A stretch of DNA of 64,000 bases from Trinickia mobilis (GTDB lineage Bacteria > Pseudomonadota > Gammaproteobacteria > Burkholderiales > Burkholderiaceae): the NCBI RefSeq assembly GCF_017315705.1, contig NZ_JAFLRF010000011.1:178410-242409 (forward strand). The letters are read 5' to 3'. The translations under genes were made by a program, and so were the position numbers. Each line of letters starts with the position of its first letter. The stretch's first letter is position 1. This document shows, in pieces, positions 8,672 through 23,398 of this stretch. The notes under the pieces were generated by a model that was not told where the DNA came from, did no database searches, and saw only the letters and a program-made list of their open reading frames with translations.

Positions 8672-10246
8672 ATGCACGCAAAGAGTTTGACCGAGCTGCG
8701 CGCGCTCATCACGTCGAAGGAATGTTCGGCGCTCGAGCTGGCGCAGCACTATCTGAAGCGAATCGACGCCGCGAGCGCGCTCAACGCGTTCATCCAGGTC
8801 GATCCCGAGCTGACGCTCGCGCAGGCGAAGGCCGCCGACGAGCGCATCGCGCAGGGCGACGCCGGCCCGCTCGCCGGCTTGCCGATCGCGCACAAGGACG
8901 TGTTCGTCACGCGCGGCTGGCGTTCTACCGCCGGCTCCAAGATGCTTGCCGATTACGTGAGCCCGTTCGATGCAACGGTCGTCGAGCGCTTTGCGCGCGC
9001 CGGCATGGTGACGCTCGGCAAGACCAACATGGACGAGTTCGCGATGGGCTCGTCGAACGAGAATTCGGCGTTCGGCCCCGTGAAGAACCCGTGGGATACG
9101 AGAGCGGTGCCGGGCGGCTCGTCGGGCGGCTCGGCCGCGGCCGTGGCCGCGCGCCTCGCGCCCGCCGCGACGGCCACCGATACCGGCGGCTCGATCCGCC
9201 AGCCGGCGTCGTTCTCGGGCGTGACCGGCATCAAGCCGACCTACGGCCGCGTGTCGCGCTACGGCATGATCGCGTTCGCGTCGTCGCTCGACCAGGGCGG
9301 CCCGATGGCGCAGAGCGCCGCCGATTGCGCGACGCTGCTCAACGCGATGGCGGGCTTCGACGAGCGCGATTCGACGAGCTTGAAGCGCGACGACGAAGAC
9401 TACACGCGCTATCTCGGCAAGACATGGTCGGCCGACGGCACGTCCGCCAAGCCGCTCGCGGGGCTGCGCATCGGCTTGCCCAAGGAGTACTTCGGCGCCG
9501 GTCTCGCCGACGACGTGCGCGCCGCCGTGGACGCCGCGCTCAAGCAATACGAAGCGCTCGGCGCGACGCTCGTGCCCGTGACGCTCCCGAAGACGGAACT
9601 GTCCATCCCGGTCTATTACGTGATCGCGCCGGCGGAAGCCTCGTCGAACCTCTCGCGTTTCGACGGCGTGCGCTACGGCCATCGCGCGGCGGAATACCGC
9701 GATCTGCTCGACATGTACAAGAAGTCGCGCGCCGAAGGCTTCGGGCACGAAGTGAAGCGCCGCATTCTGGTCGGCACGTATGTGCTCTCGCACGGCTACT
9801 ACGACGCGTACTACCTGCAGGCGCAGAAGATCCGCCGCATCATCGCGCAAGACTTCCAGGAAGCGTTCAAGACCTGCGACGTGATCATGGGGCCGGTCGC
9901 GCCGTCGGTGGCGTGGGAGATCGGCGCGAAGGGCGACGATCCGCTGCAGATGTATCTCGCCGACGTCTACACGCTGTCGATCAGCCTCGCAGGCCTCCCC
10001 GGCATGAGCGTGCCGTGCGGATTCGGCGCGGGCGCGAACGCGAAGCGTCCGGTCGGCTTGCAGATCGTCGGCAATTATTTCAATGAAGGCCGGATGCTGC
10101 AGGTCGCAGACGCGTTCCAGCGTGCCACCGATTGGCACAAGCAATCCCCGGCAGGAGCATGGGATGAACCCCCACGCTTACAACAACGTTCGCTGCCCCC
10201 CGAGGGGGCGCATGCCTCCCTTGAGGCGGCTCGGCGGGAGGCATGA
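8672..10246 (+). CDS. gatA: Asp/Glu-tRNA amidotransferase subunit A, with repeat-derived C-terminus
   Basis: A 524-residue amidase that hydrolyses glutamine and channels ammonia to GatB. The catalytic triad Lys75, cis-Ser150 and Ser174 is visible (IAHKDVF, the GGSSGGS motif, [10 protein letters not shown]), with the spacing expected of GatA. The family usually ends shortly after the ATDWH segment, at about 490-500 residues. Here the last 27 residues (from about 498) are encoded by an 80-bp palindromic repeat at 10164-10242. The stop at 10244-10246 overlaps the first possible gatB ATG. The tail lies outside the amidase domain, so activity is probably intact. Confidence 0.97.
10164..10242 (+). 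repeat. GC-rich palindromic repeat, copy inside gatA 3' end
   Basis: About 79 bp closely matching the two copies at 22505-22666: it starts ATGAACCCCCACGCTTA, then has TTCGCTGCCCCCCGAGGGGG, and ends CGGCGGGAGGC. Each copy can form a CCCCC-GA-GGGGG hairpin and a longer stem between GCCTCCC and GGGAGGC. Here it is translated as the gatA tail, and its last bases act as the gatB ribosome-binding site. Confidence 0.85.
10236..10241 (+). promoter_or_regulatory. gatB ribosome-binding site provided by the repeat
   Basis: GGGAGG at 10236-10241 is the terminal stem arm of the repeat. It lies seven bases before the ATG at 10249 and only one base before the ATG at 10243, so it favours 10249 as the gatB start. 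Confidence 0.6.
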
Positions 10247-10248
10247 AC

Positions 10249-11718
10249 ATGGAGTGGGAAGTCGTTATCGGCCTGGAGACGCACACACAGCTCTCGACGG
10301 CCTCGAAGATTTTCTCGGGCGCCTCGACGCAATTCGGCGCCGAGCCGAACACGCAGGCGTGCCCCGTCGATCTCGCGCTGCCGGGCGTGCTGCCGGTGAT
10401 GAACAAGGGCGCCGTCGAGCGCGCGATCCGCTTCGGTCTTGCGATCGGCGCGACGGTCGCGCCGCGCAGCATCTTCGCGCGCAAGAATTATTTCTACCCC
10501 GATCTGCCGAAGGGCTACCAGATCAGCCAGTACGAGATCCCCGTCGTGCAGGGCGGCCAGATCACGATTCAGGTGCCGGCCAACGACAAGGCCGGCACAG
10601 CCGCGTACGAGAAGACCGTCAACCTCACGCGCGCTCACCTCGAAGAGGACGCCGGCAAGTCGCTGCATGAAGACTTCGCGGGCATGACCGGCATCGACTT
10701 GAATCGCGCCGGCACGCCGCTGCTCGAAATCGTCACCGAGCCGGAAATGCGCAGCGCCGCCGAGGCGGTGGCGTACGCGAAGGCGCTTCATGGGCTCGTC
10801 ATGTGGCTCGGCATCTGCGACGGCAACATGCAGGAAGGCTCGTTCCGCTGCGACGCGAACGTGTCGGTACGTCCGGTTGGGCAGAAGGCATTCGGCACGC
10901 GCGCGGAGATCAAGAACCTGAACTCGTTCCGCTTCCTCGAAGAAGCGATCCAGTACGAAGTGCGCCGCCAGATCGAGCTGATCGAAGACGGCGGCACCGT
11001 CGTGCAGGAAACGCGTCTGTACGATCCGGACAAGCGCGAAACGCGCTCGATGCGCAGCAAGGAAGACGCGCACGACTACCGCTATTTCCCCGACCCCGAC
11101 CTGATGCCGCTCGTGATCGACGCGGCGTGGGTCGAGCGCGTGAAGGGCGAGATGCCCGAGTTGCCCGCCGGCATGCAGAAGCGCTTCGTCGACCAATACG
11201 GCGTGACGCCGTACGACGCCGGCGCGCTGACGTCGAGCAAGGCGATGGCGGCGTACTTCGAGGCGGTCGTCGCGAAAGCCGGGGTTGCGCAGGCAAAGAC
11301 GGCGGCGAACTGGCTGATGGGCGAAGTGTCGTCGCAACTGAACCGCGACGGGCTCGACATCGCCGACAGCCCCGTCTCCGCCGCGCAGCTCGCGCTGGTG
11401 CTGCAACGCATCGCCGACGGCACGATCTCGAACAAGATCGCGAAGGAAATTTTCCTCGCGATCGGGGACGAGCGCGCCACCGACGAAGCCGCCGCCGACC
11501 GCATCATCGAAGCGAAAGGCTTGAAGCAGATCTCGGATACCGGCGCGCTGGAAGCGATCATCGACGAAGTGCTTGCCGCGAACCAGAAGTCGGTCGAGGA
11601 ATTCCGCGCGGGAAAGGAAAAGGCGTTCAACGCGCTGATCGGCCAGGCGATGAAGGCGACCAAGGGCAAGGCGAACCCGCAGCAGGTCAACGAGCTGCTG
11701 AAGAAGAAGCTGTCTTGA
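10249..11718 (+). CDS. gatB: Asp/Glu-tRNA amidotransferase subunit B
   Basis: A 489-residue subunit that binds the mischarged tRNA and phosphorylates Glu or Asp before transfer of ammonia from GatA. Family marks are the N-terminal [31 protein letters not shown], and [13 protein letters not shown], with the C-terminal GatB/Yqey helical domain ending [16 protein letters not shown]. Two in-frame ATGs occur at 10243 and 10249. The second has the better-placed GGGAGG and gives the N-terminus usual for the family. The first overlaps the gatA stop by ATGA. Confidence 0.97.
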
Positions 11719-22504: not shown

Positions 22505-22584
22505 ATGACCGATCCCCACGCTCACTATCGTTCGCTGCCCCCCGAGGGGGCGGGCGCCTCCCTTGGGGCGGCCCGGCGGGAGGC
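22505..22584 (+). repeat. GC-rich palindromic repeat, tandem copy A
   Basis: An 80-bp unit beginning ATGACCGATCCCCACGCT and ending CGGCGGGAGGC, with the CCCCC-GA-GGGGG hairpin inside. It is nearly identical to copy B, which starts 82 bases later. It lies just upstream of the slmA start, in opposite orientation. Confidence 0.9.
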
Positions 22585-22586
22585 GC

Positions 22587-22666
22587 ATGAACGACCCCCA
22601 CGCTCACTATCGTTCGCTGCCCCCCGAGGGGGCGGGCGCCTCCCTTGGGGCGGCCCGGCGGGAGGC
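22587..22666 (+). repeat. GC-rich palindromic repeat, tandem copy B
   Basis: An 80-bp unit beginning ATGAACGACCCCCACGCT and ending CGGCGGGAGGC. Its complement encodes the last 19 residues and the stop codon of the HAD phosphatase gene (TAG at 22609-22607). Confidence 0.9.
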
Positions 22667-23398
22667 GCGAGTGCCCAGCCGAAGCGATTTTAACGAACGA
22701 ATGCGACGATCGACATAGTGGGGACGTCCGGTGCCGGGCTGGCGCGCCGGCGTGCCGTTTGCCTTCGACGCCGCGGGGAGATGGCCGACGATCCAGACCG
22801 TCCGAATTCCCAGGCGCTTGTAGCGCTTCAGGTGTCCGCGCGTGTCTTCGACGAGGATCGCATCGGCAAGCGGCACGTGCGCGTCGCGCATCGCCCGGCG
22901 CAGCATCGATGCGTCGGGCTTCGCGCGCCACGCGCGACGGTCGCGCATGTGCTCGATTGCGATCACCCGCTCGAACAGGCGCTCGATGGAGAGCTCCCGC
23001 AGCACCGCGTGCGCGTAGGCCTCCGGCCCATTGGTCAGCACCAACTTGCGTCCTGGCAGCGCCGCGATAAGGCGCGCGAGACCGCGCTCGGCGCGCACCA
23101 TCGAGCCGAGGTCGGGGAACGTGTGGACTTCTTTCAGGAAGTCGTGCGGGTCGATCAGGTGATGCCGCGTCAAGCCGAGCAGCGCCGCACCGTAGCGCTG
23201 CGTGTAGCCGGTGCGCAGGCGGTTCGCCACATCGCGCTCGACTTGCAGCGCGTCGATGATGTATTGCGTCATCGCCTGGTTGATCGCCGGGAAGATCTTG
23301 TACGACGCGTGGTGCAGGGTGTTGTCGAGGTCGAACAGCCAGACGGGGCTGCCCGCGTTGACGTGCGGCCGGCGCCGCTTGGGGCGAGAGATGGGCAT
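22607..23398 (-). CDS. HAD-superfamily hydrolase (pyrimidine 5'-nucleotidase-like)
   Basis: A 263-residue HAD phosphatase. Motif I is FDLDNTLHHA near residue 22, motif II is LTNGPEAYA, the motif III Lys region is AWRAKPDAS and motif IV is VEDTRGH. It resembles the SDT1/YjjG-like nucleotidases normally found beside argB in Burkholderiaceae. A basic N-terminus (RPKRRRP) precedes the domain. The last 19 residues are translated from repeat copy B and so have no family equivalent. The substrate is inferred only from family. Confidence 0.88.
   Translation of the reverse strand: MPISRPKRRRPHVNAGSPVWLFDLDNTLHHASYKIFPAINQAMTQYIIDALQVERDVANRLRTGYTQRYGAALLGLTRHHLIDPHDFLKEVHTFPDLGSMVRAERGLARLIAALPGRKLVLTNGPEAYAHAVLRELSIERLFERVIAIEHMRDRRAWRAKPDASMLRRAMRDAHVPLADAILVEDTRGHLKRYKRLGIRTVWIVGHLPAASKANGTPARQPGTGRPHYVDRRIRSLKSLRLGTRASRRAAPREAPAPSGGSER

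Follow-up and report, generated by a model that had tools for sequence, protein, structure and literature searches.

The junction between gatA and gatB in a 64,000-nucleotide stretch of Trinickia mobilis DNA (the window) raises a question of origin and of function. A palindromic repeat lies there, codes for the C-terminus of GatA and provides the Shine-Dalgarno (SD) sequence of gatB. How did such a sequence come to stand between two genes, and what would it do to their translation? In this study, the repeat was compared within its own genome (G000, 8.0 Mb in 123 contigs, which contains the window), in two genomes of the same genus (G001 and G002), and in further Burkholderiales. The results suggested that the gatA-gatB repeat is probably a copy of a mobile family of palindromic elements of this order, which inserts at start codons and carries a complete translation-coupling unit.

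The repeat at the gatA-gatB junction

The original prediction, made from the window alone, had held that a palindromic repeat forms both the tail of GatA and the ribosome-binding site (RBS) of gatB. The reading frames, the GGGAGG upstream of the gatB ATG and the repeat-free junctions of G001 and G002 all supported this. A repeat of 79 bp had been expected to be translated as 27 extra residues; the extra tail was confirmed, and its length was corrected to 28 residues. The tail lies outside the span of the Pfam Amidase match. The coordinates are collected in Table 1.

In G001 and G002, GatA stops at residue 496, 28 residues earlier than in G000, and no repeat is present. Their junction reads ...GGCAGGAGTCTGA(A/G)TATGGA(G/A)TGG, with AGGAG preceding the same gatB ATG. 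The alignment of junctions that had been recommended thus yielded repeat-free alleles together with their RBS. From these short, repeat-free junctions, the gatB start is most likely the ATG at 10249, and GatA most likely ends ordinarily at residue 496. The nearest named relatives of this GatA are from Burkholderia and Paraburkholderia.

The predicted palindromic hairpin was found at the junction, and it contains the gatB RBS. Its perfect 10-bp arms are CATGCCTCCC at 10211-10220 and GGGAGGCATG at 10236-10245, and the gatB GGGAGG pairs with CCTCCC (10215-10220) within them. The predicted RNA fold of 10140-10260 had an energy of -57.6 kcal/mol (z -2.7), which was equalled by 2 of 200 shuffles. 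Rfam covariance models gave no match up to E = 1 across 9900-10500.

Table 1. Features of the gatA-gatB junction and of further family loci (positions in the window)
Feature	Position	Strand	Basis or remark
gatA with repeat-encoded C-terminal tail, 524 codons	8672..10246	+	reading frame; Pfam Amidase residues 22-476
AGGAG, likely former gatB SD sequence, now within the gatA coding sequence	10153..10157	+	aligned to GGCAGGAGTCTGA(A/G)TATGG of G001/G002
palindromic repeat unit at the junction, codes for GatA 497-524	10160..10243 (boundaries approximate)	+	comparison with repeat-free relatives
hairpin 1, GCCCCC/GGGGGC	10195..10209	+	arm search, RNA fold
hairpin 2, CATGCCTCCC/GGGAGGCATG plus inner stem; right arm contains the gatB SD sequence	10211..10245	+	arms, fold, family covariation
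GGGAGG, gatB SD sequence	10236..10241	+	7 nt 5' of ATG 10249
gatA stop TGA	10244..10246	+	overlaps ATG 10243; 2 nt before ATG 10249
gatB	10249..11718	+	start aligned with G001/G002; Pfam GatB_N, GatB_Yqey
two tandem family units, no co-oriented gene start (exception)	22505..22668	+	
loci of other genera with an ATG within 12 nt opening at least 100 codons: L248, L249, L250, L251, L255, L256, L271, L274			

A repeat family at start codons

The repeat was searched against its own genome by BLAST (40 of 135 candidate places scored), which gave 53 matches including itself; the best of the others had an E value of 3.5e-22. The 31-mer of the right hairpin had 63 matches in the genome with at most three mismatches, and its reversed control had none. 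At least 66 units in 58 arrays were read in G000, in the fetched stretches and the window, and seven of the arrays were tandem. The sequence is therefore a dispersed palindromic repeat with many copies, like the repetitive extragenic palindromes (REP). Its position is not extragenic, since the majority of units stand at gene starts and inside open frames. The original prediction had spoken of an intergenic-type repeat, and this description did not hold, since most G000 copies stand exactly at start codons and within an open frame.

Placement was determined for the 58 arrays. A gene start followed directly in 48 and at a short distance (17-34 nt) in three (L191, L219, and L225); two were fused in frame to a gene, four had no gene start behind them, and one was followed by N. 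Thus, 53 arrays were at, near or fused to a gene. In 42 of the arrays, the GGGAGGCA of the last unit was followed at +2 or +3 by an ATG or GTG that opened a frame of at least 100 codons, compared with 9,633 of 327,824 control positions of the same loci (2.9%). All 42 proteins had a Pfam match at E < 1e-5; in one of these arrays (L196, minus strand), the protein begins inside an incomplete second unit that is joined to it in frame. The remaining 16 arrays include that of gatB itself. A shortened or diverged second unit follows in L182, L184, L188, and L195 and finishes at the gene start, and L187 has a 70-codon frame at +2. L194 and L197 are in-frame N-terminal fusions whose genes have no start of their own at the junction. 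The leader frame of L194 and of the upstream copy of L197 runs into the gene, and the repeat peptide may form the N-terminus of the gene product. In L191, a tandem duplication of 32 nt repeats the first 11 codons of the gene downstream, which puts another short frame behind the leader and ahead of the gene.

Sixteen G000 genes were looked up in G001 and G002, and 13 of them had at least one repeat-free counterpart. At L181, L186, L194, L197, and L207, the close alignment ran on the left up to the ATG and resumed from the ATG onward; an example is GAGAA-ATGAGCAGC in G002 against GAGAA-ATGAACCACCCCC...GGGAGGCATC-ATGAGCAGC in G000. L193 had the same filled and empty pattern with small differences, and the L197 site was also filled in G001. 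The start of panC was empty in G001 (L377), carried a short form in G002 (L376) and a long form in G000 (L186), all within one genus. L178 and L202 had no counterpart among the G001 and G002 matches, and L189 had more distant ones only. As far as sequence comparison reaches, these empty counterparts place the insertion at the start codon. In a check for target-site duplication, the bases after the left and the right ATG mostly differed; at most the ATG was repeated, and from this it cannot be said whether the element carries an ATG. In G001 and G002, six loci per genome were examined together with their flanking sequence, and 11 of these 12 ran to a start at +2 to +7.

The tandem pair of the window lies antisense to its neighbouring genes. 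The C-terminus of a minus-strand frame at 22607-23398, which we take to be a HAD-type hydrolase, runs into the reverse complement of a unit, and the tail of this product would be encoded by the repeat in the opposite orientation. A related copy with the same right flank was found in G001 (L421).

Leader frame, hairpin and proposed translation coupling

Of the 66 units, 62 lie in a frame that stays open from a start codon 66 nt or more upstream, a loose criterion under which some frames open far upstream and some starts are TTG. In 43 units, the stop TGA at +3 overlaps the start at +2. With the gatA stop 2 nt before the gatB ATG, stop and start overlap or lie a few nt apart, as in translational coupling. 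The leader frame has 28 codons, or 44 with an extra 48-nt module (16 codons), which lengthens at least 20 units and leaves the frame intact. Tandem units are joined by a TGA/ATG overlap or as a single frame at an 81-nt period (L190, L216, and L223). SD-like tetramers preceded 35 of 45 non-tandem leader starts, compared with 86 of 765 control windows. Set against the consensus, three single changes would each create a stop, but in the units concerned an adjacent base is altered as well; a real stop in the leader frame occurred only in L192 and L226, both frame-shifted.

Covariation was investigated in 47 of 50 distinct cores, three having been dropped for shifting or breaking the alignment. Seven pairs were changed on both sides, all in the right hairpin (shuffled mean 2.7), and 31 double-change cells were counted (shuffled mean 4.2); none of 500 shuffles reached either value. 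No pair of the left hairpin was changed on both sides in these 47 cores. The repeat GGGAGG had a predicted mean unpaired probability of 0.068 at 45 filled sites folded with their flanks, compared with 0.399 for the GA-richest hexamer at 18 repeat-free starts. The prediction and the covariation both indicated that the downstream SD sequence is held in structure, a further feature of translational coupling.

Position, empty sites, frame and structure were established by the sequence, and coupling is what we infer from them. The element has inserted directly before, or just behind, a start codon, and both the left flank with the old SD sequence and everything from the ATG onward are retained. The old SD sequence now precedes the leader frame, whose TGA mostly overlaps the gene start, and a new GGGAGG stands before the gene in a hairpin maintained by compensatory changes. 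This hairpin would keep GGGAGG inaccessible until it is opened by a ribosome that reads the leader frame and terminates beside the start; the downstream gene would therefore be translated in proportion to the leader frame. What is kept is the open frame and the structure. The gatA-gatB copy is a variant of this common design in which the upstream gene substitutes for the leader frame. Ribosomes on gatA would pass through the 28 codons of the repeat, unfold the hairpin and terminate 2 nt ahead of the gatB ATG; gatB would thus depend on the signal of the repeat. Such a design would explain why insertion is tolerated at the start sites of needed genes.

Several observations weigh against this proposal. 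In four of the 66 units (L192, L203, L226, and L227), the standard frame lacks a start; L427 in G001 and L428 in G002 have no in-frame leader start, and the leader of L431 in G002 is unlike the others. The four arrays without a gene start behind them are L200, L205, L227, and the tandem pair of the window. Among the 18 hexamers at repeat-free starts, three do not resemble an SD sequence. GGGAGG of the common form lies only 4 nt before the start at +2, compared with 7 nt at gatB; a distance of 4 nt is at the short end of the usual spacing. In other genera, an ATG within 12 nt opening at least 100 codons was found at only 8 of 25 loci (Table 1), and some related repeats there are plain tandem repeats with other stems (e.g., L254, L266, and L275). 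The sequence type of the gatA-gatB copy is close to single-copy in each genome, and this copy therefore need not behave like the amplified type. Finally, distinct leader copies had no excess of synonymous changes: 11 were counted in short leaders against 13.6 ± 2.7 expected, and 16 in long leaders against 16.5 ± 3.0.

Because synonymous changes are not in excess, the leader peptide as such is not under visible selection, its sequence looks unimportant, and it is the retention of the frame, not codon selection, that points to leader translation. Selection on a functional peptide would be expected as a synonymous excess, the absence of which speaks against a peptide function of the leader. An amino-acid-sensing leader-peptide attenuator was not supported either, since the same absence gives no sign of a conserved peptide or of regulatory codons.

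Competing explanations and known systems

The gatA-gatB junction was readable in 155 of 159 loci; the remaining four had no recognisable gatB start. Only nine of the 155 carried the repeat, by eye and also by a core search with at most six mismatches, so the result that the original prediction had named as fatal to it, a tail shared by all relatives, was not obtained. The carriers are one of the three genomes of the own genus (G000) and eight of the 132 genomes read, among 144, of a neighbouring genus, g20 (L015, L149, L150, L151, L152, L153, L157, and L167). None of the 12 unread g20 genomes matched the query tail to its end in the sequence search; one of them (G212) matched in two pieces, to residue 517, with an internal stop. 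In all nine carriers, GatA is open through the repeat to ...EAARREA, followed by a TGA adjoining gatB. Tail lengths vary by whole codons, and the 29-base right hairpin is identical in eight carriers and differs by a single base in the ninth.

A tree was built from 141 of the 155 gatA-gatB sequences with the junction excluded. The nine carriers required at least 8 changes on it, and 91 of 500 label shuffles were as low; the carriers were thus no more clustered than shuffled labels. A single gain would demand 28 losses. This patchy history may reflect a single old insertion, repeated insertion, or exchange between lineages. Twenty-one genomes were searched for the exact sequence type of the gatA-gatB copy. 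It occurred once in eight of the nine carriers and twice in G146; G021 and G182 each had it once, at a different gene. In G146, the second copy (L419) stands at the start of the counterpart of the G021 (L411) and G182 (L414) gene, all in g20 genomes; this gene encodes ...ADIQNTVPQ or ADLQNTVPQ.

The patchiness bears on a first alternative, that the repeat at gatA-gatB is a functionally neutral allele. The junction would then have a good gatB SD sequence, normal expression and a tolerated tail, and its distribution would result from drift, loss, and recombination. The unclustered carriers, the number of losses behind a single gain, and the absence of the repeat from most relatives read all agree with this explanation. 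So does the near single-copy state of the sequence type in g20 carriers, which makes fresh insertion from a local stock not obvious. On the other hand, GatA has stayed open to the TGA beside gatB in every carrier despite changes in length, and the right hairpin has hardly varied among them. A neutral allele is a serious possibility, though a somewhat doubtful one.

Two further observations concern this junction. The repeat-free junctions L018-L020, L344, L351, and L355 finish in GGGGGCATGA or GGGAGGCATGA, and five of these six have REA or WEA as the final GatA residues; whether such endings are remains of decayed insertions or convergence cannot be told. In Duganella aquatilis (L079), gatA and gatB are separated by a palindromic repeat of another kind, 3' of the GatA stop; it is not found in L077 and L078.

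Outside the genus, the family was sought in 150 sampled genomes of the order, of which 15 (G000 included) matched, in 13 of 92 genera. Twelve plasmid records also matched, five with gene tables and seven with almost none. Copies lay between co-oriented genes on plasmids of Azoarcus sp. KH32C (kinase and cheB-type genes), Variovorax sp. PBL-E5 (ABC transporter genes), and Burkholderia stagnalis, inside an annotated gene start in a Paraburkholderia record, and between genes of the other strand on an Acidovorax plasmid. On a Paraburkholderia largidicola plasmid (L240), a succinate dehydrogenase assembly factor gene is annotated from a start upstream of a family copy; this annotation may include the leader frame or be misplaced. 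A candidate mover was sought in G000 through PF01797 (Y1-type), which gave one match of 27.3 bits (cut-off 23). Its 3.3-kb locus contained no repeat core and just two weak matches to shorter pieces, and the full-length protein had no Pfam match at 1e-5. No REP-associated tyrosine transposase (RAYT) flanked by repeat copies was found in this search, which was confined to PF01797.

A second alternative is a selfish DNA palindrome of the REP or miniature inverted-repeat transposable element (MITE) type. Its hairpin would serve DNA transposition and have no part in translation, and it would insert at any ATG-like target and survive at gene starts because its right end resembles an RBS and an ATG. 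The need for a DNA hairpin would equally give covariation; the lack of synonymous bias in the leader peptide, the related repeats elsewhere that are often not at starts, and the existence of tandem units also fit. Random placement at ATGs predicts many copies at other ATGs, of which the window has 1,646 on both strands, 158 of them opening at least 100 codons (spurious frames included); yet 48 of the 58 arrays stand directly at a gene start. Frame-keeping changes, such as the 48-nt module and the fused tandem units at an 81-nt period, are unexpected for a purely DNA-level element. This explanation is unlikely. The idea that the tail is ordinary conserved GatA sequence, palindromic by chance, can be dismissed, since GatA is repeat-free in G001, G002, and most relatives read and the repeat has its many matches in the same genome.

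The proposed start-codon-inserting coupling element was compared with known systems. Small bacterial repeats with open frames fused to genes are described in the consulted parts of two papers (PMC2229807, PMC10969869). The Rickettsia palindromic elements (RPE) and MITE-like elements reported there resemble the present family in being palindromes of about 100-200 bp whose open frame is found joined in phase to host genes. The GatA tail, L194, and L197 are such fusions, and the family is likened to RPE by this description. According to these parts, RPE and MITE-like elements insert inside coding frames or between genes, whereas a start-codon position, a leader ending on the next start, and a stem-held SD sequence are features of the present family that go unmentioned there; the term "start codon" does not occur in the main text of either paper. 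REP elements and their bacterial interspersed mosaic element (BIME) assemblies with RAYT (Y1) transposases share GC-rich palindromes, many dispersed or tandem copies, and a Y1-type protein in the genome. They are extragenic by name, in contrast to the copies here, which for the most part stand within open frames at gene starts; the single Y1 match showed no link to the repeat.

Mobile leaders and coupling are likewise known. ORF-11 of attI1 in class 1 integrons is, according to PMC8876359, a short leader frame with its own SD sequence on a mobile element, which raises translation of the gene behind it by coupling. ORF-11 stays in place in attI1, to which genes are brought, whereas here the cassette goes to the genes and the new SD sequence lies in a hairpin. 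Coupling at ATGA overlaps, as outlined in PMC12548453, involves an inhibitory structure over the downstream RBS, requires upstream translation, and proceeds by RNA unfolding or reinitiation. The present case shares the stop/start overlap and the structure over the RBS, but the coupling unit is a repeated mobile sequence. Overlapping or closely spaced gene pairs are enriched among complex subunits, as PMC10666635 states, which suits GatA and GatB. In the open-licence literature searched, no account of start-codon-inserting palindromic repeats in Burkholderiales was found among the titles and abstract beginnings listed, and PMC7798474 contained nothing relevant. Measured against these sources, a repeat family at start codons that brings a hairpin-held SD sequence would be new; coding palindromic repeats and a mobile coupling leader are known.

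Small palindromic repeats commonly pass for filler between genes or for passive inserts in proteins. A family that lands on start codons with leader, stop, SD sequence and hairpin in about 84 bases would offer a natural means of changing the translation of many genes together. A bolder and only tentative proposal is that the family rewires starts, giving the old SD sequence to a leader and a new, hairpin-locked one to the gene, and has thereby placed about 50 unrelated genes of one genome, including those for pantothenate synthesis and an amidotransferase subunit, under a common dependence on leader translation, possibly with a shared switch. It is speculation that pausing at PPE/PPG codons before the hairpin would act as the switch. 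The filled and empty sites of close relatives make it testable whether a ribosome on the upstream frame opens the locked start. Annotated starts and C-termini at repeat sites, such as that of GatA here, need care.

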